Source of the DNA: a virus
Direction: 5' to 3' (one strand)
DNA: 64,000 nucleotides
IMG/VR virus record: IMGVR_UViG_3300024261_000015
Coordinates: 18,711-82,710 of that record
In this document: piece after piece, positions 26,870 to 59,740 of the stretch
Position numbering within the stretch: position 1 is the stretch's first letter
Layout: the number at the start of each line of letters is the position of its first letter
Notes under the pieces: generated by a model
What the model was told of the DNA's origin: nothing
Seen by the model: the letters and a program-made list of their open reading frames with translations, nothing else
Databases searched by the model: none
Position numbers and translations under genes: made by a program

Positions 26870-27453
26870 TGCTTACTAATGACCAATGGTTTAAAATCCA
26901 TAAAAAGTATAAGCGTTTGATGTATGCGGTATCGCATAAGATTGGAGGGGATAAGGTTGCACATGATTTTGATGACAGTAACCAAGAACTTGCAATTACA
27001 GCTATGGACGCTTGCGATGCCTTTGCTCGAAAGACGGGACAGGACTTCGATACCTATTTTGGTACTACGCCTTTTGATAAATACATTAAAACCTGTCTGT
27101 GGAATAAGAAGAACAATGTTGGAACCAAGATTAAGAAGAAATACGAAATCAGACGATGCGTTTCTCTTTCATCTAACCCCGAAATGTTCTCTACTGAAAC
27201 AGGCAATGTGTATGCAAGTGCTAACCTTGAACAAGAGCCAACCTCTATTTCAGCATTTGATGACGCTAACCTAGACACTACATCCCAGGCAATTGCCGAT
27301 GCTGTAATATCTGACATGAGAATCATTAAACCTGATGGCACTCTAAACATTTCTAAACTTTCACGAATCACTAACAAACCAAAAAATGAAGTTCGTAACG
27401 CCATCGAGAAGATGAAGTACGACTTACGGGACTACAACAATGAAACAAACTAA
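26869..27453 (+). CDS. Sigma-70-like late transcription factor, T4 gp55-like
   Basis: 194 residues from the ATG that overlaps the VWA stop (TGATG). Residues about 20-85 follow sigma region 2 (DDSNQELAITAMDACDAFA, then DFDTYFGTTPFDKYIKTCLW). A C-terminal helix-turn-helix-like segment (LNISKLSRITNKPKNEVRNA) may correspond to region 4. Short sigma factors of this kind direct T4 late transcription from promoters with only a -10 box, which fits the TATA-only motifs seen upstream of many genes here. Confidence 0.7.
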   Translation: MLTNDQWFKIHKKYKRLMYAVSHKIGGDKVAHDFDDSNQELAITAMDACDAFARKTGQDFDTYFGTTPFDKYIKTCLWNKKNNVGTKIKKKYEIRRCVSLSSNPEMFSTETGNVYASANLEQEPTSISAFDDANLDTTSQAIADAVISDMRIIKPDGTLNISKLSRITNKPKNEVRNAIEKMKYDLRDYNNETN

Positions 27454-31929: not shown

Positions 31930-32052
31930 TCAAGTCCCTGGGTTCACTCCACAGAACCACAGGATATAGGTGGAGAATACCACCGTGAACAGGCAACCGC
32001 CTGCGAGATAGAAAAAGAATTGGGCTCTTTCGAGCGGGTCGTAGTGAGACAT
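31930..32052 (-). CDS. Micro membrane protein (40 aa), leaderless
   Basis: MSHYDPLERAQFFFYLAGG begins the protein; a hydrophobic helix spans about residues 12-34 with two cysteines. The ATG lies 6 bases after a TATAAT box, so the mRNA has no leader. Its stop codon is part of another CTTGACTTTT motif. Not recognised. Confidence 0.65.
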   Translation of the reverse strand: MSHYDPLERAQFFFYLAGGCLFTVVFSTYILWFCGVNPGT

Positions 32053-32058
32053 ATGCTT

Positions 32059-32087
32059 ATTATACTGTAAGAAAAGTCAAAAGTCAA
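32059..32087 (-). promoter_or_regulatory. Sigma-70 promoter giving a leaderless mRNA
   Basis: TTGACT (32087-32082), 17-bp spacer, TATAAT (32064-32059), 6 bases, ATG at 32052. The spacer itself contains a second TTGACTTTT. Confidence 0.85.
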
Positions 32088-32121
32088 GCCCTATCTGAGG
32101 AAAATGCTCGTCTAGGTTGAG

Positions 32122-32204
32122 TGGAGGAGGTGCGGGGATTCGAACCCCGTTCCACGCAAGTTCCCGCAAGGGGCGTTCCCACGTGTCGATACCAGTACAC
32201 CCCC
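32122..32204 (-). ncRNA. tRNA-like RNA resembling a tmRNA tRNA-domain (83 nt)
   Basis: Acceptor GGGGGTG pairs with CACCTCC (one G-U), discriminator U, encoded CCA; T arm CGGGG-TTCGAAT-CCCCG. Instead of a D stem it has TACTGGTATCGACACG, which fits the tmRNA hallmark GGNNUCGAC. Between this and the T arm only about 40 bases remain, foldable as CACG/CGTG enclosing small hairpins, so there is no tag-peptide reading frame and no room for pseudoknots. No normal anticodon loop can be placed. It starts 8 bases after the leaderless gene at 32213-32449 and may be processed from its transcript. It could also be a decayed or odd tRNA. Confidence 0.5.
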
Positions 32205-32212
32205 CGAAGGGT

Positions 32213-32449
32213 CTAGTTCCCTTGCGTTGCCTCGTAAGGTTTACGTTTAGAGCCAGCGTGGTTACCGTAGTGCTTTCCGCAAGCCATAACGGGCAAGCGT
32301 CTACGCACGGAGCGATAAGCATCTAGCGTCCTCAAGGCATAGGCGGGAGTAAACAGCCTGGAATTATGAGCCATCGCAAAATGACTCCCGAGAACGCGGG
32401 AAATGAGGTTGAGAGTGTTGTTTCTGAGAGTGTTGTGATTTTGTTTCAT
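32213..32449 (-). CDS. Small basic protein, leaderless
   Basis: 78 residues, strongly basic (RSVRRRLP, KHYGNHAGSKRKP), with one cysteine and several histidines. The ATG at 32449 lies 6 bases after the -10 box; upstream in-frame codons would precede the promoter and are excluded. The charge suggests nucleic-acid binding. Because a tRNA-like RNA follows directly, the transcript could also be an RNA precursor. Confidence 0.6.
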   Translation of the reverse strand: MKQNHNTLRNNTLNLISRVLGSHFAMAHNSRLFTPAYALRTLDAYRSVRRRLPVMACGKHYGNHAGSKRKPYEATQGN

Positions 32450-32455
32450 GCTTAC

Positions 32456-32484
32456 ATTATACCCGCTCCCGTGCCCAGACGCAA
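32456..32484 (-). promoter_or_regulatory. Sigma-70 promoter giving a leaderless mRNA
   Basis: TTGCGT (32484-32479), 17-bp spacer, TATAAT (32461-32456), 6 bases, ATG. Confidence 0.82.
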
Positions 32485-32513
32485 GTACTAAATAAAGAAA
32501 ATGCGTGAAAAAA

Positions 32514-32545
32514 CGTAAGTCGTGTAGTACCAAGGACTTACGACG
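32514..32545 (-). terminator. 13-nt-loop hairpin element followed by a T run
   Basis: Minus strand: CGTCGTAAGTC, loop CTTGGTACTACAC, GACTTACG, then TTTTTT. It can act as an intrinsic terminator for the gene at 32600, and lies 30 bp upstream of the next -35 box. Confidence 0.72.
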
Positions 32546-32599
32546 AATCGGGGCCCCCGCCCCTATTTTATATTTATATTTTGAGGATTTTATTATTAT

Positions 32600-32788
32600 T
32601 CAACCCCTGAATATTTCTTTATCTTCGACCTCTTCAATTGTACATTCTTCCAAACAATCCATGCACCAATAATAATCATCCATCCATAACTTAGCTAAAC
32701 TTTGCGAATTAGGTTTGTTTATCGGGACCATAACGCTTCCTTGTTGGTGAATATCTCTTCCACCGCAATCTGAACATATTGTAATCAT
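32600..32788 (-). CDS. Small zinc-ribbon-like protein
   Basis: 62 residues from an ATG with a good ribosome-binding site (AGGAG, 6 bases upstream). CSDCGG near the start and CMDCLEEC in the second half make a four-cysteine zinc ribbon. The SD-type start and AT-rich base use differ from its neighbours. Confidence 0.7.
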   Translation of the reverse strand: MITICSDCGGRDIHQQGSVMVPINKPNSQSLAKLWMDDYYWCMDCLEECTIEEVEDKEIFRG

Positions 32789-32807
32789 TTTATCTCCTTT
32801 TATTATT

Positions 32808-33482
32808 TTAGTGGGTTGCAAATCTAACTGTTTTTGTGGTCATCCAGCATAATCCACATGAGGCACAATCTTTGACTTTTCCTGTCTGTTCTGGACAATC
32901 AAAGGACTTGCCCTCAAATGATTCATCGGCGGCATAACTCCAATTTTCTTCGAATGGTCCTTGAGTCGGAACTAATTTTCCATCGTATGCTTTATTCCCC
33001 GAATGACGAATAACGCAACGGTCAGGATATTCATTATTCAGCCTCCAAATAGCGTGTGCAATATTATCTCCCTTGCGAGCGGTATAACCAAACAAGCAAA
33101 GTTTCGAGTGCTTTTCTAGCATCTCTCGCCAGAACTGAATATAATCTACGGAATAAAAATCACCTAGAACATGTAATCGAATGACGATGCCATGTTTATG
33201 TTTCGCGAGCAATGTTTCAATTTCACGCTCCAAAATTATATCTATATTGTGAGGCTTGAATCGGTGCGCGAATGGCATATTATTCCCATAGCAGTCATTC
33301 CAATGGTGACAAGTTGTGGGGCAAGTTGTTCTTTCTTCCAGCGTGAGAGAATATAATCTTTTCCCTTTCCACTTCTTTGAACTAACCACGAACCCTAACT
33401 TTTTATTTCCGCTCCCTTTTTTGAGGGTCTTACCTTCTACGGGTGTGCGGAGCGACTTCTGGAATATGCTTTGTACTTTCAT
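32808..33482 (-). CDS. Cys-rich phage protein of the Gp88-like (DUF7227) type, leaderless
   Basis: 224 residues. TTCPTTCHHWNDCYGNN carries the CP-x2-C-x5-CYG pattern of mycobacteriophage gp88-like proteins, with more cysteines near the C-terminus (CPEQ, CASCGLCW). RLHVLGDFYSVDY lies in the middle. The family function is unknown; a metal cluster is likely. The ATG is 6 bases after a TACAAT box. Confidence 0.68.
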   Translation of the reverse strand: MKVQSIFQKSLRTPVEGKTLKKGSGNKKLGFVVSSKKWKGKRLYSLTLEERTTCPTTCHHWNDCYGNNMPFAHRFKPHNIDIILEREIETLLAKHKHGIVIRLHVLGDFYSVDYIQFWREMLEKHSKLCLFGYTARKGDNIAHAIWRLNNEYPDRCVIRHSGNKAYDGKLVPTQGPFEENWSYAADESFEGKSFDCPEQTGKVKDCASCGLCWMTTKTVRFATH

Positions 33483-33488
33483 TCCGCC

Positions 33489-33517
33489 ATTGTAAACTAT
33501 GGGGGGTGCCGTGTCAA
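33489..33517 (-). promoter_or_regulatory. Sigma-70 promoter giving a leaderless mRNA
   Basis: TTGACA (33517-33512), 17-bp spacer, TACAAT (33494-33489), 6 bases (GGCGGA), ATG. Confidence 0.85.
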
Positions 33518-33556
33518 TAGCCTAGATGGGTAAAATGCGTGAAAATGTGAGAAAAA

Positions 33557-33605
33557 CGTAAGTCGTGCAGTACCAAGGACTTACGACGGCGCGGGGCCCC
33601 GCGCC
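33557..33605 (-). terminator. 13-nt-loop hairpin with T run, adjoining an 18-bp GC palindrome
   Basis: Minus strand, in order: GGCGCGGGGCCCCGCGCC (33605-33588, perfect palindrome), then GTCGTAAGTC, loop CTTGGTACTGCAC, GACTTACG, then TTTTTCTC. It probably terminates transcripts from the genes at 33776-34110. Confidence 0.75.
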
Positions 33606-33775
33606 TGCCATTTTGACAGGGTTTGGGTCACTATGTTCTGCCAAGATGGCAAAAAGCGGAGAAAATCAGCTTTTTAGAACCCCTTTTTTTTGAACATGCG
33701 CTTATGTCAAAATCTACTGTGTTTTGGTAGCACTTTTTCCCGAATTGCACCATATGGTACACACGGGCCTTATTC

Positions 33776-33994
33776 CTAGAAAATAACGGGATGCTCCTCC
33801 AAATATACTAGCTCGCTATGCCATTCAGGGTGATACACTTCCAAAGCATCCCGCGCATCCAAGGGGGTAAGCCCCTCGTTGTACAGGTCAGCAAGAATAT
33901 CTTTCAAGTGAGGACTCTCATCATAATTCATTAGAGACAACTCATTCAGCCACTCACCGAAGGTGGCTTCAAACAAATCAAATTGAGGTTTCAT
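33776..33994 (-). CDS. Small acidic hypothetical protein
   Basis: 72 residues from the ATG that overlaps the stop of the upstream micro membrane protein (TAATG). LTPLDARDALEVYHPEWHSELVYL gives a helical C-terminal half. Longer reading frames upstream are excluded by the 38-codon gene there. Confidence 0.6.
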   Translation of the reverse strand: MKPQFDLFEATFGEWLNELSLMNYDESPHLKDILADLYNEGLTPLDARDALEVYHPEWHSELVYLEEHPVIF

Positions 33995-34110
33995 TAGAGA
34001 GTCCCCGTAAGGGCTTGGATGATGATGCCGAGGGCAGAGCCAAGGCATATGAGGATGAAGCTTCCACCGATGAAGATGGGAAGGTCAAGGTTGTACAGGT
34101 TATTTTTCAT
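33994..34110 (-). CDS. Micro membrane protein (38 aa), paralogue of 35615-35734, leaderless
   Basis: MKNNLYNLDLPIFIGGSFIL starts the protein; residues 10-34 form one membrane helix. It shares the start MKN-YNL-LP-F and overall layout with the protein at 35615-35734, including the 1-4 base overlap with a small soluble protein downstream. Confidence 0.68.
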   Translation of the reverse strand: MKNNLYNLDLPIFIGGSFILICLGSALGIIIQALTGTL

Positions 34111-34116
34111 GTCCCC

Positions 34117-34145
34117 ATTTTAATAAACCATACCCCGAATAGCTA
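34117..34145 (-). promoter_or_regulatory. Promoter for a leaderless mRNA (weak -35)
   Basis: TAAAAT (34122-34117), 6 bases, ATG; 17 bp upstream is TAGCTA, a mutated form of the TTGCTA found in the homologous cassettes at 35741 and 36812. Confidence 0.65.
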
Positions 34146-34171
34146 GAACTAAATCGAATAAATTGGCCGTT

Positions 34172-34199
34172 GTAACCCGTTGCTGTATAAGGACTTACG
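34172..34199 (-). repeat. 13-nt-loop hairpin element
   Basis: Minus strand: CGTAAGTC, loop CTTATACAGCAAC, GGGTTACAACGG. Loop length and ends are conserved though the right arm has drifted. Part of the duplicated intergenic cassette. Confidence 0.65.
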
Positions 34200-34557
34200 T
34201 GTTTCGCGGCCCCCGCCAGAATTTTTGTCAAGGTGAAAGGTGGAGAGGCTAGAGCGGTGGGGATTACTTTATTACCCACACCAAGAAGCGTATTTGAACG
34301 GCATACGCAGCCTGTAAAACTGTAGTTTGGTTCTTCTTGGCGTTACTTGCGTTTGGGTTCTCTGGCACCTTAGCCCGTCAACGGGGAACAACCCCCTCTC
34401 CCGCACGCATTTATCCGAGGATACCCCCCAGTTATCGGGGGCGTTACCTGACGCTCTCATCGCAAGCCTTGCAAAGCTCGCGATGCTCTCCGTGATTTTG
34501 TTGTGAAAGAGGGGGAGCGTTTATCGCCCGCTCCCCAAGGCGATGAAAAACAACCAG
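34200..34557. other. Intergenic stretch with one doubtful frame
   Basis: A 62-codon minus-strand frame (34272-34460) exists but has no ribosome-binding site, no correctly placed -10 box and an Arg-rich, low-quality composition. Several GC-rich inverted repeats occur. I see no RNA gene. Confidence 0.4.
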
Positions 34558-34953
34558 TTAGTTGTGCTTGTCGCCCATTGCTTCGCTGAACTCCCGTGCG
34601 GTCATCATCCCCTTCATTCGGTCATCATCGTCTTGGAGTAGCTCGAAACTATCCCGATAGGCTTTGGGCATATCGTAGGAGTTTAGAATACCTCTCCAAT
34701 TTGAAGACCCGCCCGTTTGGATTGCTTCGTGCTGCATTCCAACCAAGCAGTTGATAACGAGTGCATCGTGTACCTCGATAGCGTTATGGTCAAAATCGTC
34801 CTTGATTGAATACCCTTTGAAGAAAGTGGCTTCGATGCATCTCTTCACCTCGTTAGAGGTTTGCATCCCCATGTAGGATAGGCACTCGTTAGACAGCAAA
34901 GCCCTATCGTCTAGCGCGGTGAATGAGCTATGCTGGATAATGGATATGTCCAT
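34558..34953 (-). CDS. Hypothetical protein
   Basis: 131 residues from the ATG one base after the upstream stop. Acidic, helical; DDDDRMKGMM near the end. It is the second gene of a two-gene leaderless unit. Longer frames overlap the upstream gene and are rejected. Confidence 0.65.
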   Translation of the reverse strand: MDISIIQHSSFTALDDRALLSNECLSYMGMQTSNEVKRCIEATFFKGYSIKDDFDHNAIEVHDALVINCLVGMQHEAIQTGGSSNWRGILNSYDMPKAYRDSFELLQDDDDRMKGMMTAREFSEAMGDKHN

Positions 34954-34954
34954 G

Positions 34955-35188
34955 CTAGTTATCCTCACCCGCGCCAAACACCTCGTCTTGGCAGGTCTGG
35001 CACATCGCTGAAATGGTGTACTCCTTTTGGGAGAGGGCATCACGGAACTCGGAAGCCTCACCCGAACAGGTGGCGCAAGACCCTTCGGCAACCGCGCCCA
35101 CACGGGAAACGCCCGTAAGATTGGAAAGCATCTGCTCGATGCCTTGGTGCTTGAAGGTAGCTTCAAGAGAGTATTGGTTGTTTTTCAT
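34955..35188 (-). CDS. Small four-cysteine protein, leaderless
   Basis: 77 residues. SCATCSGE and MCQTCQDE make two CxxC knuckles about 27 residues apart, a zinc-ribbon layout. The ATG lies 6 bases after TATAAT. Confidence 0.7.
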   Translation of the reverse strand: MKNNQYSLEATFKHQGIEQMLSNLTGVSRVGAVAEGSCATCSGEASEFRDALSQKEYTISAMCQTCQDEVFGAGEDN

Positions 35189-35194
35189 GTTTGT

Positions 35195-35223
35195 ATTATA
35201 CCCGATGAGGGTCGTGAAGTCAA
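35195..35223 (-). promoter_or_regulatory. Sigma-70 promoter giving a leaderless mRNA
   Basis: TTGACT (35223-35218), 17-bp spacer, TATAAT (35200-35195), 6 bases (ACAAAC), ATG. Confidence 0.9.
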
Positions 35224-35242
35224 GTGTTTTATCGGAAAAAGT

Positions 35243-35371
35243 TTAGTCGCACGGTCCTAACATACCAGACAGCATAGCGACCACTTTGAAGGCGTACAGG
35301 TAAACCACGCAGGACACGGCAGCCGAAGCGCCGATGATGGCGATGGTCCAGTTAGTGTTATTATCTTTCAT
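35243..35371 (-). CDS. Micro membrane protein (42 aa), leaderless
   Basis: MKDNNTNWTIAIIGASAAVS begins a single hydrophobic helix (about 8-36), ending GMLGPCD. It ends 20 bases before the next -35 box, so it is a single-gene unit. No family recognised. Confidence 0.68.
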   Translation of the reverse strand: MKDNNTNWTIAIIGASAAVSCVVYLYAFKVVAMLSGMLGPCD

Positions 35372-35377
35372 GTTTAC

Positions 35378-35406
35378 ATTATACCCGATGAGGGCTGAGG
35401 TGTCAA
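35378..35406 (-). promoter_or_regulatory. Consensus sigma-70 promoter giving a leaderless mRNA
   Basis: TTGACA (35406-35401), 17-bp spacer, TATAAT (35383-35378), 6 bases (GTAAAC), ATG. Both boxes match consensus perfectly. The -35 box overlaps the stop of the upstream gene. Confidence 0.92.
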
Positions 35407-35618
35407 GCACCATCTTGGATATTATCTTGAAGAAATTTCATCATCTCCAGCGTGTCCTTGTAGCTCATGGGAGGCATAGGGTCAGGGTTCACATAATGAG
35501 GGTTCGGGTCAAGCCTTCCCCCCGTCATTTTCCACCAATCGTACCAATCCTTTTCATCCCAATAAGCGGTAGGACCAGAGGGCACGGGGAACTTTGCATT
35601 TTCAGGTAGTTTTTTCAT
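35403..35618 (-). CDS. Small Pro/Trp-rich hypothetical protein
   Basis: 71 residues, rich in Pro, Trp, Asp and Tyr (WDEKDWYDWWK, PDPMPPMSY). It overlaps the upstream micro membrane gene by 4 bases (ATGA), so the two are translated together. Confidence 0.62.
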   Translation of the reverse strand: MKKLPENAKFPVPSGPTAYWDEKDWYDWWKMTGGRLDPNPHYVNPDPMPPMSYKDTLEMMKFLQDNIQDGA

Positions 35619-35734
35619 GAGAGCGTACCAAGAATGGCTTCGATGATGCTAACGACAGCGCCGAAAGCGCAAACGAACATGAAGCCCCCGATGATGAAGA
35701 CGGGAAGGGTTAGGTTGTACTGGATATTTTTCAT
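35615..35734 (-). CDS. Micro membrane protein (39 aa), paralogue of 33994-34110, leaderless
   Basis: MKNIQYNLTLPVFIIGGFMF begins the protein; one membrane helix covers residues 10-36. Clear paralogue of the protein at 33994-34110. First gene of a two-gene unit. Confidence 0.68.
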   Translation of the reverse strand: MKNIQYNLTLPVFIIGGFMFVCAFGAVVSIIEAILGTLS

Positions 35735-35740
35735 GTTATC

Positions 35741-35769
35741 ATTATACTCGCTGCGTGTAGGGATAGCAA
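35741..35769 (-). promoter_or_regulatory. Sigma-70 promoter giving a leaderless mRNA
   Basis: TTGCTA (35769-35764), 17-bp spacer, TATAAT (35746-35741), 6 bases, ATG. Sequence is nearly identical to the promoter at 36812. Confidence 0.85.
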
Positions 35770-35822
35770 GAACTAAATTGAAGAAATTGGCCGTTGTAAC
35801 CCGTTGCTCTTCAAGGACTTAC
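35741..35822 (-). repeat. Duplicated intergenic cassette, copy 1
   Basis: About 82 bp almost identical to 36812-36893: -10 and -35 boxes, an AT-rich segment and a 13-nt-loop hairpin (loop CTTGAAGAGCAAC). Differences are confined to the loop and a few bases next to it. A third, diverged copy is at 34117-34199. Confidence 0.85.
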
Positions 35823-35825
35823 GAC

Positions 35826-35843
35826 GGCGCGGGGCCCCGCGCC
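35826..35843. repeat. 18-bp GC-only palindrome
   Basis: GGCGCGGGGCCCCGCGCC, identical to 33588-33605. Related but imperfect GC-rich elements follow the hairpins at 32545 and 36894. Confidence 0.85.
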
Positions 35844-35919
35844 TAAAAAATTGCAAGCATAAAATACGGGGTTGGCGGTTTGTTTCCGTGGTTAGCCGCC
35901 GAACACGTTTTTTATAGCA

Positions 35920-36114
35920 TCACAGCTTGGTCACGGTGAGCGAATCGCGCAGGGTCTTATTATAAAACTCCCCCGTGCTTTCCGCGCCTTCCCATTCCGA
36001 GAACGTCTTACGGTCCATCGGTGCAATGTCGTAGCAATTCCCGTTGGTGAGGGTCATAGTAGCTGAGCTACTGGAGTCGTTATACTGAATAGAGTCAATC
36101 CAAGAACTGGTCAT
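35920..36114 (-). CDS. KTSC-domain protein
   Basis: 64 residues covering a whole KTSC domain: SSWIDSIQYND, MTLTNGNCYDI, and AESTGEFYNKTLRD, matching the family pattern of a start with Ser-x-I-x-x-Y and an ending with A-x-S-x-G-x-(F/Y)-x-N-x-x-(I/L)-R. The role of KTSC proteins is unclear; some sit next to lysyl-tRNA synthetase-related genes. Unlike its neighbours it has a leader of about 117 bases. Confidence 0.8.
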   Translation of the reverse strand: MTSSWIDSIQYNDSSSSATMTLTNGNCYDIAPMDRKTFSEWEGAESTGEFYNKTLRDSLTVTKL

Positions 36115-36231
36115 ATCTTTATACCCCTTTGAAGGGTTTGGGTTTACGTCAAAAAGTGTGGAAATCGAGTTTTTCTGACAGGGACTCGAAACCCTACGGA
36201 CGTTCTTGTGTGGGTGCCGTCCGTAACCCTA
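36115..36231 (-). ncRNA. Structured leader RNA of the KTSC gene
   Basis: From the predicted start: stem ACGGACG/CGTCCGT with a 15-base loop; a hairpin AGGG-TTTCGAGT-CCCT like a tRNA T arm with one extra loop base; an alternative stem CGAGT/ACTCG sharing that loop; and ACCC/GGGT-type pairing just before the start codon, near AAAGGGG. The mutually exclusive stems suggest a switch, or a decayed tRNA. Confidence 0.4.
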
Positions 36232-36237
36232 GCGCGT

Positions 36238-36266
36238 ATTATATCAAAAGGACAACGCCCTGTCAA
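36238..36266 (-). promoter_or_regulatory. Perfect consensus sigma-70 promoter
   Basis: TTGACA (36266-36261), 17-bp spacer, TATAAT (36243-36238). The -35 box overlaps the stop of the upstream gene. No start codon at 6-7 bases; it drives the structured leader instead. Confidence 0.92.
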
Positions 36267-36532
36267 CCATAATACCCGTAACTTTCATCCTCTCCCCAGC
36301 CTATCGAGGTAAACGCGCCCTCATCATCGAAACCGTTATCCCCCCCGTTCCGTTCTTGCTCCATCGCCTCTTCCGTGGCAATCATGCCCGTAGCGCATTC
36401 GCAGAAATCCATGTCCCCGTCATCGTCATAGAATGTGCCGCTATCGCAGCAGGTCATGCAATCGGGACGGTCTTCCATTTCAAAGGCGTTGGAAGTAGGG
36501 TAAGCGTGGTCAAAGGTGCTGGGCTTGTTCAT
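36263..36532 (-). CDS. Small acidic cysteine-rich protein, leaderless
   Basis: 89 residues. DCMTCCDSGTFYDDDGDMDFCEC gives a four/five-cysteine metal-binding knuckle; the rest is rich in Asp, Glu and Gly with GYYG at the end. The ATG lies 7 bases after TATAAT. Resembles a DnaJ-type zinc knuckle only in spacing. Confidence 0.65.
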   Translation of the reverse strand: MNKPSTFDHAYPTSNAFEMEDRPDCMTCCDSGTFYDDDGDMDFCECATGMIATEEAMEQERNGGDNGFDDEGAFTSIGWGEDESYGYYG

Positions 36533-36539
36533 GTTGTAC

Positions 36540-36568
36540 ATTATACGAGGTAAGGGGTTGGATTGCAA
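36540..36568 (-). promoter_or_regulatory. Sigma-70 promoter giving a leaderless mRNA
   Basis: TTGCAA (36568-36563), 17-bp spacer, TATAAT (36545-36540), 7 bases, ATG. Confidence 0.85.
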
Positions 36569-36576
36569 GGACTATT

Positions 36577-36804
36577 TCAGTTTTTTTCTTGGGAGTTCAC
36601 GGCGTGCTGCACAGCCATCACGAATCGGTGCGGGTTGAAAGCGTCGCTGCTCCCTTTGCACAGTTCTTGAAATCTGCGAATCACCTGTTCGCCTTGCTTG
36701 CCATCGCTCAAGCCCTCTTCCCATATTTCATTTTTTTCTATGTCGAGGATAATAAGGGCGCAGGTTTCGGCTAAGGCTTGGAAGTGTTGCTTGGTCATTT
36801 TCAT
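36577..36804 (-). CDS. Small helical hypothetical protein, leaderless
   Basis: 75 residues, MKMTKQHFQALAETCALIIL at the start, helical throughout. An upstream in-frame extension would run through the promoter and is excluded. Confidence 0.65.
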   Translation of the reverse strand: MKMTKQHFQALAETCALIILDIEKNEIWEEGLSDGKQGEQVIRRFQELCKGSSDAFNPHRFVMAVQHAVNSQEKN

Positions 36805-36811
36805 GTTGTAC

Positions 36812-36840
36812 ATTATACTCGCTGCGTGTAGGGATAGCAA
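36812..36840 (-). promoter_or_regulatory. Sigma-70 promoter giving a leaderless mRNA
   Basis: TTGCTA (36840-36835), 17-bp spacer, TATAAT (36817-36812), 7 bases, ATG. Confidence 0.85.
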
Positions 36841-36893
36841 GAACTAAATTGAAGAAATTGGCCGTTGTAACTCGTTGCTGTGTAAGGACTTAC
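36812..36893 (-). repeat. Duplicated intergenic cassette, copy 2
   Basis: Near-identical to 35741-35822. The hairpin loop here is CTTACACAGCAAC. It is followed by GACGCGGGGCCCGCGCC, a broken version of the GC palindrome. Confidence 0.85.
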
Positions 36894-36923
36894 GGCGACG
36901 CGGGGCCCGCGCCCCGAATTTTA

Positions 36924-37040
36924 TCAACCCCAATGACCAAAGATTACCCAATATAAAAATGCATAGAATAGGGCTGAAATAGCAAACGAGGAACACACTC
37001 CTAGGAATACGCTTCCATCGCGTTCTCTGGGCTCATGCAT
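36924..37040 (-). CDS. Micro membrane protein (38 aa)
   Basis: MHEPRERDGSVFLGVCSSFA starts the protein; residues 10-34 are hydrophobic. It overlaps the end of the upstream gene by 8 bases and has no promoter of its own. Confidence 0.6.
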   Translation of the reverse strand: MHEPRERDGSVFLGVCSSFAISALFYAFLYWVIFGHWG

Positions 37041-37362
37041 GGTAATACTCCTCGGTTGCAGTGCATAGGTTCTCGAAATCGTTCCAACGCTTGTCGCTAA
37101 CTGCTTGAATAATAGCCGCAAGACGGTTGACAGGAACCCACCCCGCAACATCATCTGGAAGGACTACGAAATCATCCATTGAGTTCATCAAAGCCACTTC
37201 CATTGTGCTAGTGGCTTTTTCACCTCCAGGTGCAGTCCCGTTCCCGCTATTGTCGCAATGGTGCCTGCTGCCCGTACCGATGCTGAGCTTGAAGCCCTCA
37301 TCAAAGTATATCTGAAAGCCTTCGCTTCTAGTCTTGATAGACATTATCAACTGGCGATTCAT
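37033..37362 (-). CDS. Hypothetical protein
   Basis: 109 residues, mixed alpha/beta with a Gly/Ser/Thr-rich turn near 40-50 (SGNGTAPGGEKAT). It starts inside the upstream gene (ATGA overlap). Second of three genes in one unit. Confidence 0.62.
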   Translation of the reverse strand: MNRQLIMSIKTRSEGFQIYFDEGFKLSIGTGSRHHCDNSGNGTAPGGEKATSTMEVALMNSMDDFVVLPDDVAGWVPVNRLAAIIQAVSDKRWNDFENLCTATEEYYHA

Positions 37363-37586
37363 ACGGAAACCCCCAACTTGGTAAGCGTGTAGCGTGTAAC
37401 CGTCTCAGCTTCGCCAGCAGTGATTTCGCACCTCTTGGCAAGCCCGAGAGCAACCCGATGGAAAGCCTGTTGAGGCGTGTAACCCTCTTCTTGGGTAAGG
37501 GTATAATCATCTACCAATCCAGGAAGGAGGACAGAGATGCCAGCATTGACCGCATCGCGTACGGCTTGTGTATCGTTGTTTATCAT
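37359..37586 (-). CDS. Small helical hypothetical protein, leaderless
   Basis: 75 residues. DAVNAGISVLLPGLVDDYTL and HRVALGLAKRCEITAGEAET suggest a compact helical fold. Leads a three-gene unit. Confidence 0.65.
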   Translation of the reverse strand: MINNDTQAVRDAVNAGISVLLPGLVDDYTLTQEEGYTPQQAFHRVALGLAKRCEITAGEAETVTRYTLTKLGVSV

Positions 37587-37592
37587 ATTATC

Positions 37593-37621
37593 ATTATACT
37601 CGATGGAGTGTGTGAATGCAA
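37593..37621 (-). promoter_or_regulatory. Sigma-70 promoter giving a leaderless mRNA
   Basis: TTGCAT (37621-37616), 17-bp spacer, TATAAT (37598-37593), 6 bases, ATG. A half copy of the hairpin element (GACTTACG) lies at 37650-37661. Confidence 0.85.
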
Positions 37622-37659
37622 CACCTATTTTGGTGAAATGCGTAAGTTTTCGTAAGTCG

Positions 37660-37749
37660 TTAGTCTGTAGGGGGTTGCGACTGAAATATAAGCCAGCCGC
37701 CGCAGAACCCGAGTCCAAGCATATTCAAGGCAAGTAGAACATCAAGCAT
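37660..37749 (-). CDS. Micro membrane protein (29 aa)
   Basis: MLDVLLALNMLGLGFCGGWL then a short polar end. One hydrophobic helix. It overlaps the upstream stop by 8 bases, the same linkage as seen for the micro membrane gene at 36924. Confidence 0.5.
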   Translation of the reverse strand: MLDVLLALNMLGLGFCGGWLIFQSQPPTD

Positions 37750-37888
37750 TTTGGCTCTGCTCCAAGAACTTGAGGGAAGCGGCTTCTAGCGTGTCCTCGC
37801 TTGAGTTCATCATGAGTTCAGCGAGTAGGAAGTTCAGGAAGAGGGGAAATTCCAAAGCCTGTGTGTAGTAACTGGTTTCTTTTATCAT
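37742..37888 (-). CDS. Micro-protein (48 aa), leaderless
   Basis: MIKETSYYTQALEFPLFLNF at the start; helical and partly hydrophobic. First gene of a two-gene unit with the 29-residue membrane protein. Confidence 0.62.
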   Translation of the reverse strand: MIKETSYYTQALEFPLFLNFLLAELMMNSSEDTLEAASLKFLEQSQNA

Positions 37889-37894
37889 GTTTAC

Positions 37895-37923
37895 ATTATA
37901 CCCGATGAGGTGAGACATTGCAA
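37895..37923 (-). promoter_or_regulatory. Sigma-70 promoter giving a leaderless mRNA
   Basis: TTGCAA (37923-37918), 17-bp spacer, TATAAT (37900-37895), 6 bases, ATG. Confidence 0.87.
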
Positions 37924-37925
37924 GC

Positions 37926-38141
37926 TTAAAATCCCCAAAATGAGGATTTCTTTTCACCTGTCCCTGCGCTGATAAGGTGACGCTTGGCAGCTAGAATGTC
38001 CCAATCTGCCTTGTCCATCCATTCAATTACATCATAGGCGATAACACGCTTGTCCATGTCAGAGAGGACAGCCGTTGGCGTGGGAGGGAATAGGTATGCC
38101 GTGCAGAGCATACCAAGTAGAAAGGCGATAACTGATTTCAT
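37926..38141 (-). CDS. Small exported or membrane-anchored protein, leaderless
   Basis: 71 residues; MKSVIAFLLGMLCTAYLFPP is a signal-anchor, followed by a helical acidic domain (DKRVIAYDVIEWMDKADWDI). The gene and its promoter lie inside the 3' end of the upstream transglycosylase ORF. Confidence 0.65.
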   Translation of the reverse strand: MKSVIAFLLGMLCTAYLFPPTPTAVLSDMDKRVIAYDVIEWMDKADWDILAAKRHLISAGTGEKKSSFWGF

Positions 38142-38580
38142 GTATAGCATTATACCCGCTTAGGTGAGGCATTGCAAGGACTTTCTGGACTTTTTTCCAG
38201 TATTTTTCAGTCGCTTGCTTGCGGTAGCCTTTGGGTCCGCCGTTGTGGATTCGGGCACACTTCTCAGCGTTGAACTTCTTAGGGTTCGTCCACGCTTCTT
38301 TGGCGTAGCGCGTCATGTAAGCGTCCACAATGCTCTTGGCATACGCACGGTCATAACAGTCCTTATATGAGCCACCGATGCCAGAGCGTTCTACAGCGTC
38401 CGTCCAGTATATTTTCCAGATTTGTAAGCAGCCTATGGCGTTCCCATTATCCCCTACAGCATCATCTTTGCCGTTGGACTCGACCTGAATCAGAGCGTCC
38501 AGCAGAGTGTCCTGTTGAGGTGTGTACTGTGCCATGACAGGAGTGGATAGAACTAACAGCGTTACAAGTGATTTCATCAT
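38059..38580 (-). CDS. Exported lysozyme/transglycosylase-like protein
   Basis: 173 residues from the ATG 7 bases after TATAAT. MMKSLVTLLVLSTPVMAQ is a cleavable signal peptide. LLDALIQVESNGKDDAVGDNG and the following IGCLQIW fit the catalytic Glu and substrate segment of soluble lytic transglycosylases. The natural end seems to be near WKKVQKVL; the last 40 or so codons read through the promoter and start of the next gene. It may serve in lysis or in exclusion of other phages. Confidence 0.72.
   Translation of the reverse strand: MMKSLVTLLVLSTPVMAQYTPQQDTLLDALIQVESNGKDDAVGDNGNAIGCLQIWKIYWTDAVERSGIGGSYKDCYDRAYAKSIVDAYMTRYAKEAWTNPKKFNAEKCARIHNGGPKGYRKQATEKYWKKVQKVLAMPHLSGYNAIHEISYRLSTWYALHGIPIPSHANGCPL
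38149..38177 (-). promoter_or_regulatory. Sigma-70 promoter giving a leaderless mRNA, inside an ORF
   Basis: TTGCAA (38177-38172), 17-bp spacer, TATAAT (38154-38149), 7 bases, ATG. It lies within the 3' coding end of the transglycosylase gene. Confidence 0.85.
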
Positions 38581-49946: not shown

Positions 49947-51674
49947 ATGAAAGACCCCATCCTAGAATTCTCATCAATATCAGTGGTATATGATTACATA
50001 AACAGCCTTCAGTCTAATACCCCCAGCGTCAGGGATGAATGTGATATCTCTTCCTACCAAATAAATCATTTTCAAGTAGGTCAAGGAGCTTCCTCAGTAG
50101 TAGAAGCGTCCTCTGTTATATCTTTAGGCGCACCCCTTACCGATGAGGAATATGGCGGAGTTCTTCGAAGTGTAGACGTGACGAGCGCAACGCTTTACAT
50201 TAGGGAAGGCGTACCCTTTACAGACCAGGACTTCGTTTCTATTACAAACCAAGGCCAGCTAGGAACTTCATCTCTTGTAAGTGTAGTATTTCTCGATGAA
50301 CAGACAGCTAATGGTACGACTATTAACGAGGTAGGTCTTTTTGTAGACAACCCATTCCTCGTACAAGGTCAGGCGTCTCAATTAGAGCAGGCACCTACTA
50401 ATAATCCAAATCAACTTGGGTTTGCGCCAAATTCACCTTCAAACTCTACGGTTGATACTTCCCCTAGAGAAGAGCCTGGGCACCTTTTGGCTGCTTACAG
50501 GCATATTACACCCATTCAGAAAGAAGACTACTTCTCTTTAATGATACGTTGGACCCTTAACTTTACCGAAGACAGGTCCCCCTTCGTACCCACCACCACA
50601 TCTGTAACCTCCTCCTATACTACTTCTACTTCCACAACCACTACCTCTACAACCTCTACTTCTACTGCTACTACCTCTACAACAACCTCTACTTCTTCAA
50701 CAACCTCTAGCTCTACTACCTTAACAACCACTACCTCTACTACTTCAACAACCTATACTACTACTCTTACTACTCTTACTACTACTACCCCCACTACCCT
50801 CACTACCCTCACTACTCTTACTACTACAACCTCTACCACTCTTACTACTACAACCTCTACTACCCCCACTACTCTTACTACTCTTACTACTCTTACTACT
50901 CCCACTACTCTTACTACTACAACCTCTACTCTTACTACTACAACCTCTACTACTCTTACTACTACAACCTCTACTACTCTTACTACTCTTACTACTACAA
51001 CCTCTACTACTCTTACTACTACAACCTCTACTACTCTTACTACTACCCCCACTACCCTCACTACCCTCACTACTCTTACTACTCTTACTACTACCCCCAC
51101 TACCCTCACTACTCTTACTACTCTTACTACTACAACCTCTACTACTCTTACTACTACAACCTCTACTACTCTTACTACTCTTACTACTCTTACTACTACA
51201 ACCTCTACTACTCTTACTACTACAACCTCAACTACCGCAGCAACGACAGTAGTAACAACGACTACGACCACTGCGGCCCTACAGACTCCTTGGTATACAT
51301 ATGTTGACCCCGATAACGGTAATGATGTACTAACTATTTATGCTGTACCCACGGCTTGGCCTCCACCGTATGGGCCAGGACGAATAGCTGGTAGTGCTGG
51401 AAATAGCTATTACCATGGTCTTAAAAGGAGTGGGTCTCGCCCAGGCCCATACAGCTATAGCTTAAAGCTATTTAATTCTGTATCAGCAACCATAGCTACT
51501 TACTCAGCATCGGCTAGCACAACCGCTATTGAGGACCTCGTTGAGGATATTAACACTGGTCACACTAATTACGACTACATTTTTGCCATTTTCCATAATG
51601 AGAGTGAGGCGGAATACTCAGAACCTAACACCTTTGCCAACGCAACTCAATTTACTAACGGAAGTGGCGGATAA
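49947..51674 (+). CDS. Tail or fibre protein with long Thr-rich repeat
   Basis: 575 residues. About 1-210: ordered beta-rich domain with ISLGAPLTDEEYGG and NEVGLFVDNPF, as in tail-fibre assembly regions. About 215-430: an almost uninterrupted T/S/L tract. About 440-575: a second ordered domain (YTYVDPDNGNDVLTIYAVPT). Two globular ends joined by a mucin-like stalk suggest an extended fibre or host-binding stalk. Confidence 0.65.
   Translation: MKDPILEFSSISVVYDYINSLQSNTPSVRDECDISSYQINHFQVGQGASSVVEASSVISLGAPLTDEEYGGVLRSVDVTSATLYIREGVPFTDQDFVSITNQGQLGTSSLVSVVFLDEQTANGTTINEVGLFVDNPFLVQGQASQLEQAPTNNPNQLGFAPNSPSNSTVDTSPREEPGHLLAAYRHITPIQKEDYFSLMIRWTLNFTEDRSPFVPTTTSVTSSYTTSTSTTTTSTTSTSTATTSTTTSTSSTTSSSTTLTTTTSTTSTTYTTTLTTLTTTTPTTLTTLTTLTTTTSTTLTTTTSTTPTTLTTLTTLTTPTTLTTTTSTLTTTTSTTLTTTTSTTLTTLTTTTSTTLTTTTSTTLTTTPTTLTTLTTLTTLTTTPTTLTTLTTLTTTTSTTLTTTTSTTLTTLTTLTTTTSTTLTTTTSTTAATTVVTTTTTTAALQTPWYTYVDPDNGNDVLTIYAVPTAWPPPYGPGRIAGSAGNSYYHGLKRSGSRPGPYSYSLKLFNSVSATIATYSASASTTAIEDLVEDINTGHTNYDYIFAIFHNESEAEYSEPNTFANATQFTNGSGG
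50600..51235 (+). repeat. Tandem short repeats encoding Thr-Thr-Leu/Thr-Ser units
   Basis: Built from ACTACTCTT and ACTACAACCTCT words in several arrangements, with many blocks repeated exactly. Imperfect direct repeats of this kind are prone to slippage and recombination. The minus-strand open frame across it is a by-product of the repeats. Confidence 0.92.
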
Positions 51675-51933
51675 AATCAAATTGGGATGGGTCAAATTCA
51701 GGCCACAATAAACTCTCTGGGTCCTTAATAAAAGCATACCACCTACCATCAATTCTTTTTTGCTTTACTTCCCACTTAGGGTGATTTACAACTGAAAGAT
51801 TTTCGCGCGGGAAGTCGTACCCAGGCTCTATCCTAACTATCCATGTACCGTCCTCTTCCAACGGAGAAGACATTCTAATAGCATACGGGGTATCGAGCCA
51901 GGACCAAACAGTATAGTAATTCTTTGTAGACAT
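51655..51933 (-). CDS. Small hypothetical protein
   Basis: 92 residues, Trp- and Tyr-rich, predicted beta-rich with a charged end. Converges with the fibre gene (20-base overlap) and diverges from the next gene with only 13 bp between start codons. Not recognised. Confidence 0.58.
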   Translation of the reverse strand: MSTKNYYTVWSWLDTPYAIRMSSPLEEDGTWIVRIEPGYDFPRENLSVVNHPKWEVKQKRIDGRWYAFIKDPESLLWPEFDPSQFDFIRHFR

Positions 51934-51946
51934 AGTATATAAAAGC
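51934..51946. promoter_or_regulatory. 13-bp bidirectional promoter
   Basis: AGTATATAAAAGC lies between a minus-strand ATG and a plus-strand GTG. The TATATA core is its own reverse complement, so it can serve as a -10 box for both genes; no -35 boxes are present. Confidence 0.55.
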
Positions 51947-52465
51947 GTGAAGAAAAAAGTTTTGTCAATATTTGGAGATGAATTTTTCCCGAAAGTGGGT
52001 GTAGGTTGGTCATCTCGTAAGAGGCAAGAGTCCGTGGACCTGCTAGTTGAGTTTTTTAAGCAGACTCAACCCGACTTGGTTTACATTATGCCTACTGGGG
52101 GGACCTGCTCGTTCGTAGGGGTTCTATGTTCTATATTAGAAATCCCTTATATTATGGTTTCTCCTTACCCTAATTTCTACAATAACGCTAAACTTGTAGA
52201 TAAGCTATGCATACGGCAGGCGATGGAGAAAGCTAAGTCGTTTGTTTTAATGGAATCTGAGGTTCCCGCCACAAGGAAAGATGGAGAGAACCTTTACGAG
52301 GACTCTGTAGAGTTTCTTTGCAGGGTTTCAGACGCTATCGTGTTTTTCTACAGTAAGGATACGACTAAATCCTACCGTTCCTTTATGGAAAAAACTTGTT
52401 CCGCTGTACCTCACATGAACTTGTGGGAGTTAGTTTACGATGGCGGGCAAATGGTTAGCGAATGA
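51947..52465 (+). CDS. Putative Rossmann-fold/SLOG-like protein
   Basis: 172 residues from a GTG. KVLSIFGDEFF starts a beta-alpha unit, followed by YIMPTGGTCSFVGVL, where a strand ends in a Gly-rich loop as in nucleotide-binding SLOG/LOG-like proteins. The end overlaps the convergent glycosyltransferase gene by 36 bases. The family call is tentative. Confidence 0.4.
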   Translation: MKKKVLSIFGDEFFPKVGVGWSSRKRQESVDLLVEFFKQTQPDLVYIMPTGGTCSFVGVLCSILEIPYIMVSPYPNFYNNAKLVDKLCIRQAMEKAKSFVLMESEVPATRKDGENLYEDSVEFLCRVSDAIVFFYSKDTTKSYRSFMEKTCSAVPHMNLWELVYDGGQMVSE

Positions 52466-53128
52466 CGCAGCAACTCTAGGAATATCCTCTTGGTACAAGG
52501 CGTTATAGTCACCCCCCGAAGCATGGCGGATTGATATGGGGAAAATCTTGTTAACTTTCTTCTTTATAAAACATTGAAGGGTTAAAAATGTATCGTAATG
52601 GTGCCATGCACTTTTCCACGCCTTCGGTGCGCGTAAAGAAATTGAGTGTAAAGTCTTTCCTGTAGTGGCTAAAAAGCAGCCGTCTAACGTAACTACATCT
52701 TTCGCAGTTCCGAAGAAGGTTAGGAACATGGTTTCGTAATCTTTACCGTGATACACCGCTCCTCCACCACAGTTATGCTGTTTGCTGCATGCATACCAAT
52801 TAATTGCTTCGGTTACGACTGCTGTACCTGCGACCCCCGCGAACCCTGTATGAGGGTCCTGAAGTTTAGCGTCTATAATACCGTTAAAATACTCGCTATT
52901 ATTTAGGATTTCGATATCGTCGTGACAAAAAATAACATAATCCTTTGCCAATACACCGCACTCTTCAACCCCGCTCCTTAAAGCTGCCAGCATGGACTCC
53001 GAATTCCTAACAAAGTGAACTTTCCACCCCGCACCCGTCAAAAAAGCGTTTAATTTTCCTACCGTGGTAGTTTTATCCTCGCAATCAGTCATTGATTCAC
53101 GCGTGGGTATGATTACGTAGCGGTTCAT
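52430..53128 (-). CDS. Glycosyltransferase, GT2 variant (StrF-like)
   Basis: 232 residues from the ATG at 53128. YVIFCHDDIEIL carries the DD metal site; GFAGVAGTAV and VTLDGCFLATT match the StrF-like GT2_5 pattern. It lies divergently from the terminase gene. Confidence 0.75.
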   Translation of the reverse strand: MNRYVIIPTRESMTDCEDKTTTVGKLNAFLTGAGWKVHFVRNSESMLAALRSGVEECGVLAKDYVIFCHDDIEILNNSEYFNGIIDAKLQDPHTGFAGVAGTAVVTEAINWYACSKQHNCGGGAVYHGKDYETMFLTFFGTAKDVVTLDGCFLATTGKTLHSISLRAPKAWKSAWHHYDTFLTLQCFIKKKVNKIFPISIRHASGGDYNALYQEDIPRVAASFANHLPAIVN

Positions 53129-53141
53129 GCTATATAATAGC
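53129..53141. promoter_or_regulatory. 13-bp bidirectional promoter with inverted repeat
   Basis: GCTATATAATAGC: GCTAT and ATAGC are inverted repeats, giving TATAAT for the terminase (3 bases before GTG) and TATTAT for the glycosyltransferase. Same spacing as the site at 51934. Confidence 0.6.
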
Positions 53142-54611
53142 GTGAAGAGAGAAGAAATTTTAGACGAACTAGAGAAATGTGCAACTGACCCCGTATATTT
53201 CATCAAGACGTATGTAAATGTTATTCACCCTATCAAGGGGGTTGTACCTTTCCACTTATTTCCGTTCCAAGAGCGTATGATTGGTGAGATTAACGATAAC
53301 CGCTTTACTTTGGTGAAAAAGTTCCGTCAGGCGGGAATTACTACGCTCTCTGCTGCATACTCTCTGTGGAAAATTATCTTTTTTGACCATCAGAACGTTA
53401 TGGTAGTGTCCATTGGCGATAGGGAGTCGCGAGCCTTCCTAGAACGCGTTGTGACGATGTATGATGACTTACCTGCATGGCTGAAGCCTAAGGAGGTAAT
53501 GCGTAACAAGCACGTCCTGAAGCTCTCTACGGGGTCGCAGATTAAATCACAGCCTGCTGGAGCGGGGCGCGGTGAATCGGTCTCTCTCCTTATCGTGGAT
53601 GAGGCTGCTTTCGTGGATAAGATGAGGGAGTTCTGGATGGCAATCTACCCTACGATTAGTACAGGAGGTTCCGCTTGTATCATCTCTACGGTTAATGGTA
53701 TGAGCAATCTTTACTATGAGCTTTACAAAGGCGCGATAGAGAAAATAAACAAGTTCCACATCGTAGATATTCAATGGGAAGAGCACCCATGGTATACCCC
53801 TGAATGGTATGCGGATACCCGACCAAACATGTCGGACAAAGCTTGGCTTCAGGAGTACGAATGCGAGTTCCTAGGTACGGGAGACACGTTCATTGATAGG
53901 CACACCCTAGTAACTATGAAAGAATCCTGCTCAGAAGAGTGGAGTTCTAAGTACACTCACCGTATGCGCGTGTGGGAAGAGCCCCAGCCTTATTACAACT
54001 ACCTATTAACGGTGGATGCCTCCTATGGCCGTGAGCGTGACCACTCCGCTTTCCATATTATTAATTTATATAACGGCGAGCAGGTAGCAGAATTCTACTC
54101 TAACGTCACTCCCATCAGTAAATTTGCGGAGATTATCAGGAAAGAAGGATACCATTACAATACTGCATATGTTCAAGTGGAGCGTAATGGTCTCGGGATG
54201 GCTCTTATCGAACAGTTATGGGAGATTTTAGAGTATGATAACCTTATCATGGATGATAAGGGCGAATTTGGCTTGATGCTGACAACTAAAAGTCGTGAAG
54301 TTGTTTTAACAGATTTGGAAGAGTGCCTGAGAAAAGGTAAAATAAAAATCAATTCCTCGCGCACAGTTGAAGAACTTTTAACTTTTATTATAAATGCGGA
54401 CACTGGTAAAGTGGAAGCAGATGAGGGGTATAATGATGACTTAGTAATGAGCTTGGCTTTAGCGGCCCACTCAATGGATGATATTTACCGTGGAAGTCCT
54501 GAACCTTTAACCTCAGGCGACGATAATAAATCCATGGCAATGCCTATAGTAAGTACTAAATATGCTGACGACGACGAGATACAACAATACCACCAATGGA
54601 TGAAAATGTAA
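53142..54611 (+). CDS. Terminase large subunit
   Basis: 489 residues. ATPase half: FRQAGITTLS (deviant Walker A, with Ile where Lys is usual), LLIVDEAAF (Walker B). Nuclease half: LTVDASYGRERDHSA, QVERNGLG and GYNDDLVMSLA provide the three acidic RuvC-like metal ligands. It packages DNA through the portal encoded next. Starts with GTG. Confidence 0.94.
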   Translation: MKREEILDELEKCATDPVYFIKTYVNVIHPIKGVVPFHLFPFQERMIGEINDNRFTLVKKFRQAGITTLSAAYSLWKIIFFDHQNVMVVSIGDRESRAFLERVVTMYDDLPAWLKPKEVMRNKHVLKLSTGSQIKSQPAGAGRGESVSLLIVDEAAFVDKMREFWMAIYPTISTGGSACIISTVNGMSNLYYELYKGAIEKINKFHIVDIQWEEHPWYTPEWYADTRPNMSDKAWLQEYECEFLGTGDTFIDRHTLVTMKESCSEEWSSKYTHRMRVWEEPQPYYNYLLTVDASYGRERDHSAFHIINLYNGEQVAEFYSNVTPISKFAEIIRKEGYHYNTAYVQVERNGLGMALIEQLWEILEYDNLIMDDKGEFGLMLTTKSREVVLTDLEECLRKGKIKINSSRTVEELLTFIINADTGKVEADEGYNDDLVMSLALAAHSMDDIYRGSPEPLTSGDDNKSMAMPIVSTKYADDDEIQQYHQWMKM

Positions 54612-56299
54612 ACAACGATAAAGTGGACGAGAACATGGGCGCAACAGAGTTCCCTAGCTCGCACACGTACGGAAAGGACGCTCCTGGATATAGAGGAAGG
54701 TTCTCCGCGTTCTGGCAGAACTTCGGTACTGGTGGAAAGAAGAAGCGTGGACGTCCACCTCTTGCACAACCTTTAGCGGGAGATGCTAAAAGCCCCGCAG
54801 ACGAGACCTTTGAGGATTTCGCTGGAGGGTATGGCAAACAAGGGACTAGTTATGGAATGCCTCGCGTTGAGCAGGAACGCCGCAGGCGTTATGCGGATTA
54901 CGAGCGAATGGACCTTGAGGCAGAAGTCGGCGCGGCACTTGATATTTACTCCGATGACGCTACGCAAGAGAACACTAAAAAGGAAATGTTTGAGCTTGAC
55001 ACAGACAATGAGGTTCTTAAGCGTGAAGTGGAGAGGTTTGTTAAGCAGACCAAGCTAGAGAAGTACATCTGGGATATTGTCCGAAATACAGCCAAGTATG
55101 GGGATTGCTTCGTTGAGAACGTAGTAGACCTTAACAACATTGACCAAGGCATCCGACGTCTTAAGATTCTCAACCCTAACTATATTTTCCGCGTAGAAGA
55201 TAAGTATGGGTATTTGAAAGAGTTTTTGCAGGAAATCCCTAACCGTGCAAATCAAACTACAGATTTATCTCAAAGCTTTCTTCCCGATAAGAAAAAGAAA
55301 AACTACATCACGCTCAACAAGGACCAGATTGTACACTTCCGCCGTATGACCTCGGATGCTAACTATTACCCTTATGGCAAGGGAATCCTAGCGTATGGCG
55401 TGCGAGTCTTTAAATCCCTAATGCTGATGGAGGATGCGATGCTTATCTATCGTATCCAACGCGCACCTGAAAGGCGTGCATTCTACCTGGAAACAGGTAA
55501 CCTACCACAGTCTAAAGTGGAAGCTTTCGTTGAACGTATTAAAGCTAAGTTCAAAAAGCAGTCCATGTGGAATCCAAACAGTAACTCTGTAGATTACAAT
55601 TACAACCCTCTTACAGTTGATGAGGATTTCTTTATCCCTATCCGTAACGGTCAAGGAACTAAGGTTGAAGTTCTCCCAGGCGCTCAAAACCTAGGAGAGA
55701 CGGATGATGTTAAGTACTTCCGTGATAAGCTCCTCGCCGCTCTTAAGGTCCCTAAGGACTTTATCGTTGAAAAGGATAGCTCCCCTGAACGTAAAGCTAA
55801 CCTATCTCAATTGGATGTTAAATTTGCAAAGGCGGTTCACAGACTGCAGGCAGATGTTGAGCGTAGTCTTAATGTCCTCCTGAAACGGCACCTTACTTTA
55901 CGAGGACTTCCTAAGAGTCTAATCGAATCGGTTGAAATGAGCCTCACTTCTCCTTCGGATATGTTTGAGAAGCGCCGACTTGAAGTGGATGAGCAGAAAG
56001 TGCGTATTGTCCAAGCCGTCAAAGGTTTGATGTTGTTTGATGACGAGTATCTTTACAAAACTTACTTCGGCATGACTGACTCTGAAGTTGATGAGATGAA
56101 GGAGCGTATGAAGAAGCAGTTTGAGGAGCAACCCCAAGAGGACCCGATGGGTATGGGCGGCGAAGGGATGCCCCCAATGGACGGTCTTGATGACGGTACT
56201 GACCCTGGCGTTGAAGAGGCAGGGGAAGAAGAGCTTGATGCAGACCAAGCTCCTCCAGGCACTACCTCTATAGGTAAGCCAGGTAACGTAAAATCCTAA
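54596..56299 (+). CDS. Portal protein, T4 gp20-like
   Basis: 567 residues. A charged, Pro/Gly-rich N-tail (1-90), then a core with DLEAEVGAALDIYSDD, NTAKYGDCFVENVVD, ILNPNYIFRVED and QIVHFRRMTSDANYYPYGKG, all typical of gp20-type portals. The acidic, Pro/Gly-rich C-tail hangs free. Overlaps the terminase end by 16 bases. Confidence 0.93.
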   Translation: MDENVNNDKVDENMGATEFPSSHTYGKDAPGYRGRFSAFWQNFGTGGKKKRGRPPLAQPLAGDAKSPADETFEDFAGGYGKQGTSYGMPRVEQERRRRYADYERMDLEAEVGAALDIYSDDATQENTKKEMFELDTDNEVLKREVERFVKQTKLEKYIWDIVRNTAKYGDCFVENVVDLNNIDQGIRRLKILNPNYIFRVEDKYGYLKEFLQEIPNRANQTTDLSQSFLPDKKKKNYITLNKDQIVHFRRMTSDANYYPYGKGILAYGVRVFKSLMLMEDAMLIYRIQRAPERRAFYLETGNLPQSKVEAFVERIKAKFKKQSMWNPNSNSVDYNYNPLTVDEDFFIPIRNGQGTKVEVLPGAQNLGETDDVKYFRDKLLAALKVPKDFIVEKDSSPERKANLSQLDVKFAKAVHRLQADVERSLNVLLKRHLTLRGLPKSLIESVEMSLTSPSDMFEKRRLEVDEQKVRIVQAVKGLMLFDDEYLYKTYFGMTDSEVDEMKERMKKQFEEQPQEDPMGMGGEGMPPMDGLDDGTDPGVEEAGEEELDADQAPPGTTSIGKPGNVKS

Positions 56300-59692: not shown

Positions 59693-59740
59693 TTATATTA
59701 CTATTATAGTTAAAAGTATCTTTTTTTTTGGAATAAATAT

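Follow-up and report, generated by a model that had tools for sequence, protein, structure and literature searches.

Candidate two-way late promoters in two 13-bp gaps between head-to-head genes of a marine T4-related phage

How can two genes that point away from each other both be transcribed when only 13 bp separate their start codons? This question is raised by two places in a stretch of phage DNA (the window, the final 64 kb of an 82.7-kb virus record), for each of which a preliminary description had proposed that one palindromic TATA box could drive both strands. The phage is marine and T4-related. DNA-level comparison with known phages returned just two weak matches, both in the portal gene, and the best identity of its terminase protein to named T4-like phages is ∼36% or less, which indicates that it has no close named relative.

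The gap lengths in that description are exact. Site 1 (51934..51946, AGTATATAAAAGC) lies precisely between a minus-strand ATG at 51933-51931 and a plus-strand GTG at 51947, and site 2 (53129..53141, GCTATATAATAGC) between a minus-strand ATG at 53128-53126 and a plus-strand GTG at 53142. Site 1 is bordered by two conserved proteins with no assigned function. One, of 92 aa (51655..51933, minus strand), has tblastn homologues of 32-100% identity and no match in a family search, and the other, of 172 aa with a GTG start (51947..52465, plus strand), has homologues of ∼20-99% identity and no confident match in a family search. Site 2 is bordered by a 232-aa glycosyltransferase, GT (52430..53128, minus strand; Pfam Glyco_tranf_2_5, E=2.7e-10), and by the 489-aa large subunit of terminase (53142..54611, plus strand, GTG start; PHROG terminase, E=1.2e-44). 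The terminase gene is overlapped downstream by the portal protein gene (54596..56299, plus strand; phrog_213, E=1.3e-85), with which it probably forms one transcription unit. GTG 53142 was taken as the first codon of terminase, since homology sets in at this codon and ATG or GTG is found here in relatives. An alternative ATG at 53127, which is in the same frame and falls within the start codon of GT, was rejected in its favor.

Relatives encode homologous proteins for all four flanking reading frames and keep their head-to-head order, and neither minus-strand gene has a directly upstream same-strand neighbor that could supply its transcription. Convergent 3′ ends in this region overlap, by 36 bp at 52430-52465 and by 20 bp at 51655-51674, so that the coding strand changes from one gene to the next and hardly any spacer is left between genes. 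The gene at 49947-51674 encodes a protein of 575 aa in which a long repeat stretch is rich in threonine and serine (TTST/TTLT). This stretch coincides with a strong GC skew (-0.36 in 50-52 kb) and fails to align from one relative to another.

The palindromic character attributed to both gaps holds at site 2, where GCTATATAATAGC matches its reverse complement at 10 of 13 positions, but not at site 1 as a whole, since AGTATATAAAAGC does so at only 4 of 13 and is thus symmetric just in its TATATA core. A pseudo-symmetric -10 element readable on both strands is therefore present in full at site 2 and at site 1 in this core only. At site 2 the hexamer TATATA (53131-53136) reads rightward and TATTAT (53139-53134) reads leftward; each begins 11 nt before its own start codon and the two overlap by about three base pairs. 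Both gaps carry a TATA box at the -10 position with no -35 element: no sigma70-type -35/-10 pair was found at either gap in a simple regional scan, which returned no excess of such pairs over shuffled sequence. The sequence TATATAAWAGCGTGAAG has only two copies in the 82.7-kb record, and in the related genome G009 (101.7 kb) TATATAATAG is found only at the same two divergent sites.

We consider it likely that both 13-bp gaps act as two-way late promoters, each serving the two genes beside it. Such a promoter would consist of a pair of -10-type TATA elements, one per strand, that overlap each other and have no -35 partner. Its left half, TATATAG when read leftward, would direct the minus-strand gene, and its right half, read rightward as TATAATAG or TATATAAAA, the plus-strand gene. 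RNA polymerase with a phage-modified specificity would bind in one orientation at a time, so that initiation would alternate between the two genes. RNA synthesis would begin at, or no more than 1 nt from, the purine of ATG or GTG, yielding leaderless mRNAs on both sides. That the mRNAs look leaderless is what would allow the gap to be only 13 bp, as a divergent pair then needs a single box. If both mRNAs begin at their start codons, the two starts would lie ∼14 bp apart. We infer the two-directional transcription, the exact start sites, the late timing and the identity of the sigma factor from sequence.

Comparison with terminase relatives from IMG/VR, from which 53 distinct upstream sequences were kept, supports this assignment at site 2. 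In 53/53 relatives terminase is preceded by a GT homologue on the opposite strand, with GT identity falling to as low as 30%. When TATATA was searched for within 14 nt of the GT start, it was found 2, 3 or 4 nt from that start in 51/53 relatives, a count that does not consist of independent cases, since the relatives form clusters on the tree. The background frequency of TATATA before any ATG at the same loci is 0.98%. Gaps between tightly packed genes could be short and AT-rich, as these are, simply by chance, but this explanation is contradicted by the conservation in 51 of 53 relatives over a background of ∼1% and by the restriction of TATATAATAG in G009 to these two gaps; we give it next to no chance of being correct.

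In 35 relatives only 12-25 bp separate the start codons of GT and terminase, and this gap holds a single box. The exact sequence TATATAATAG is present in 30 of these 35 close-set pairs, with varying positions on its flanks. The first T of TATATAATAG lies 11-12 nt from the terminase start in 13 relatives and 19-20 nt from it in 17. These observations bear on the possibility that transcripts begin far upstream within the neighboring genes and that the AT-rich gap is only an unstructured landing place for ribosomes. AT-rich starts do ease initiation without a Shine-Dalgarno sequence, which is in favor of such a landing place. Nevertheless, it would not account for a box that has every letter preserved in 30 close-set relatives despite divergence of the GT codons beside it, that stays in place as its distance to terminase varies from 11 to 20 nt, and that has the form of a -10 element enriched before starts throughout the genome. 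We regard such far-upstream starts as distinctly unlikely.

The remaining 18 relatives, in which the pair is separated by at least 27 bp, show what becomes of the box when the two genes move apart. TATATA is kept at the GT start in 17/18, and the rightward TATAATAG half is gone from the GT box in all but one, L087, where the box is duplicated. With a simple motif list, at least 12 of the 18 were seen to have a separate box before terminase (CTATAATA, CTTTAATA, TATTATAG and similar). Mapped on the terminase tree, the fused state with one box and the split state with two have replaced each other at least six times. In L087 a ∼1-kb gene (L087:1572-2542) has been inserted between GT and terminase, accompanied by another copy of the box; the gene resembles GDP-mannose 4,6-dehydratase, a label assigned by eye from the sequence and not by family search. 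GT in this relative retains CAT-GTC-TATATAATAG, and the second copy is flanked by the inserted gene and terminase. In L024 a 137-aa gene lies between GT and terminase, and a box is kept for each of the two. The presence of a box on both sides in split and inserted lineages is hard to explain unless GT and terminase each need one.

Two other explanations can be weighed against these split pairs. The first limits the box to late promoter activity in one direction, toward the plus-strand gene (terminase); the minus-strand genes would then have another source of expression or next to none, and the symmetry would be a by-product of TATATAATAG. Many late boxes are indeed naturally part-symmetric, and the more distant contigs L122 and L123 use TATATAATAG in one direction, which led us to reject the idea that this sequence is exclusive to two-way sites and suggests that part of its symmetry comes with being a late box and was not selected for two-way use. 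A promoter serving terminase alone, however, gives no reason for separated GT genes to keep TATATA 2-4 nt away even where terminase has a second box, nor for the GT box to persist in L087 and L024, where no plus-strand gene starts at it, and it leaves the minus-strand genes with no upstream neighbor on their own strand to transcribe them. We therefore consider the one-way reading unlikely. The second explanation denies the palindrome promoter function and takes it as the target of a dimeric regulator or, with the terminase gene nearby, as a DNA-packaging signal. Although site 2 is palindromic and adjoins terminase, boxes of this type also stand at another gene pair unrelated to it and, in relatives, ahead of genes that lack a divergent partner, and separated lineages have two directional boxes in place of one palindrome. 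This makes such a site very improbable.

Returning to the two-way promoter, conservation at site 1 follows the gene pair as well. The box is present in lineages that have the divergent 92-aa neighbor, with 13 identical base pairs in L004-L008 and with TATATAATAG in L009/L040, L039, L041 and L042. In L010 the 92-aa gene has been lost, the box is missing too, and the 172-aa gene is located directly behind an upstream plus-strand gene. In the genome studied here site 1 has TATATAAAAG, a form that stands next to GT alone in some of the separated pairs, and the plus direction may thus be weak and is less certain than at site 2. For the proposal that one box could drive both strands, the comparative evidence is good at the GT/terminase gap and moderate at the one at 51934.

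A third divergent spacer in the window, of 48 bp (59693..59740), separates a helicase (minus strand) from a baseplate hub gene (plus strand) and has a CTATAATAGT box directed toward the helicase. The same pair in the relative G005 (L032:2476-2495) is separated by a 20-bp gap that holds a perfect 14-bp palindrome, ACTATTATAATAGT, and each start is 12 nt from its own TATAAT.

The short distance between box and start codon is not confined to divergent pairs. Promoter-type words are enriched within 30 nt before starts genome-wide, and late-type boxes are found about 11-13 nt before start codons, most often at 11 nt. A TA-type box ∼10-12 bp before the start, with no Shine-Dalgarno sequence, precedes both site 2 genes and many others. 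Some operon-internal genes carry a Shine-Dalgarno-like AGGAG, so that the leaderless pattern is not universal. An apparent peak of TATAAT at -4 before starts was discarded as mostly an artefact, as it includes the AT of ATG itself.

A second group of genes shows a related arrangement with a different promoter. An array of small genes on the minus strand (32052..38580; reading frames of 39-173 aa) has a leaderless-type sigma70 promoter for each gene, with a TTGCAA-like -35 element, N17, TATAAT, 6-7 nt and then ATG. The pattern TTGCAA-N17-TATAAT-N6/7-ATG has 11 sites in the record compared with 0.11 expected from shuffled sequences, and the relative G003 has the same layout with eight similar promoter sites and one spurious match. 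A TATAAT placed 6-7 nt before ATG, with standard sigma70 spacing, implies that the RNA begins at the ATG. The promoter type and the small size of these genes suggest that they are early. We are inclined to think that in this phage lineage much of the genome, early and late, is expressed from leaderless mRNAs, that late promoters are fused to start codons so that an element of ∼13 bp can be the whole promoter in head-to-head pairs, and that pairs have switched between fused and split states in evolution.

Recognition of the late boxes would require a suitable specificity factor. The candidate is the protein encoded at 26869..27453 on the plus strand, which the preliminary description had called a sigma. 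Among 6 homologues, Sigma70_r2 was detected in 5 (best E=1.2e-5), a weak sign of a Sigma70 region-2 protein but one that recurs consistently. The predicted structure, of moderate quality with a mean pLDDT of 69, gave weak fold matches to sigma subunits in the PDB (best E=0.037), and a sequence search against solved structures returned nothing useful. This protein would probably supply late-box recognition. Neither gp33 nor a gp45 clamp was seen among the reading frames scanned in the record, which is incomplete.

The proposed mechanism resembles both the bidirectional promoters of E. coli and the late promoters of T4; what appears to be new is their fusion with leaderless starts. In bacteria, symmetric -10 elements drive divergent transcription (PMC10268837, PMC12825309), with 7-25 bp between the start sites and 18 bp as the preferred spacing in E. 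coli and Salmonella (PMC10268837). As in these prokaryotic promoters (Warman et al. 2021; PMC10268837; PMC12825309), one pseudo-symmetric -10 element would here be used by polymerase either way. The phage sites differ from the preferred 18 bp in their inferred spacing of ∼14 bp, with hexamers that share about three base pairs, and from bacterial bidirectional promoters in that both products would be protein-coding mRNAs whose start codons abut the promoter. The suggestion that these promoters would be close to the smallest possible consequently calls for caution, as the inferred ∼14 bp falls inside the reported range of 7-25 bp (PMC10268837). The extreme feature is instead the position of the coding regions, which both abut the promoter unit because both mRNAs would be leaderless.

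T4 late promoters have a TATA box with no -35 element, recognized by gp55 and beginning at -13 (PMC2988020). The phage is similar in having TATA-only boxes before head and packaging genes and in encoding a small sigma-like protein. The boxes TATATAATAG and CTATAATA depart from the exact T4 consensus TATAAATA, and the first T at site 2 is 11 nt before the start codon compared with -13 in T4; in some relatives (L062, L109) the sequence is TATATAAATT. Because the T4 spacing would start the RNA inside the start codon, the phage would have to initiate 1-2 nt closer to its box. Two-way use is not mentioned in the review of T4 late promoters, in which the word "bidirectional" is absent (PMC2988020). 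A TA-type signal ∼10-12 bp before the start codon marks leaderless bacterial genes (PMC3160421), which share with the phage genes a -10-type box at a fixed short distance and the lack of a Shine-Dalgarno sequence; here the pattern is found in a phage, at early and late genes and in head-to-head pairs. We did not find a two-way promoter with leaderless starts on both sides described in the open-access literature searched. If the proposal is right, these 13 bp would be a minimal natural two-way expression unit that constitutes both promoters with no untranslated leader. The natural series of fused and split pairs would offer a test of how direction is set in a promoter with no -35 element. It would also suggest that leaderless expression is widespread in this uncultured group of T4-related phages, which would affect the prediction of gene starts there.

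A further feature of the two sites is that their plus-strand genes share ∼25 nt from the box into the coding sequence (TATATAAWAGCGTGAAGARARAAG; 51936-51960 and 53131-53155) despite encoding unrelated proteins. The similarity could stem from duplication, from conversion or from selection acting on the part that is transcribed first.
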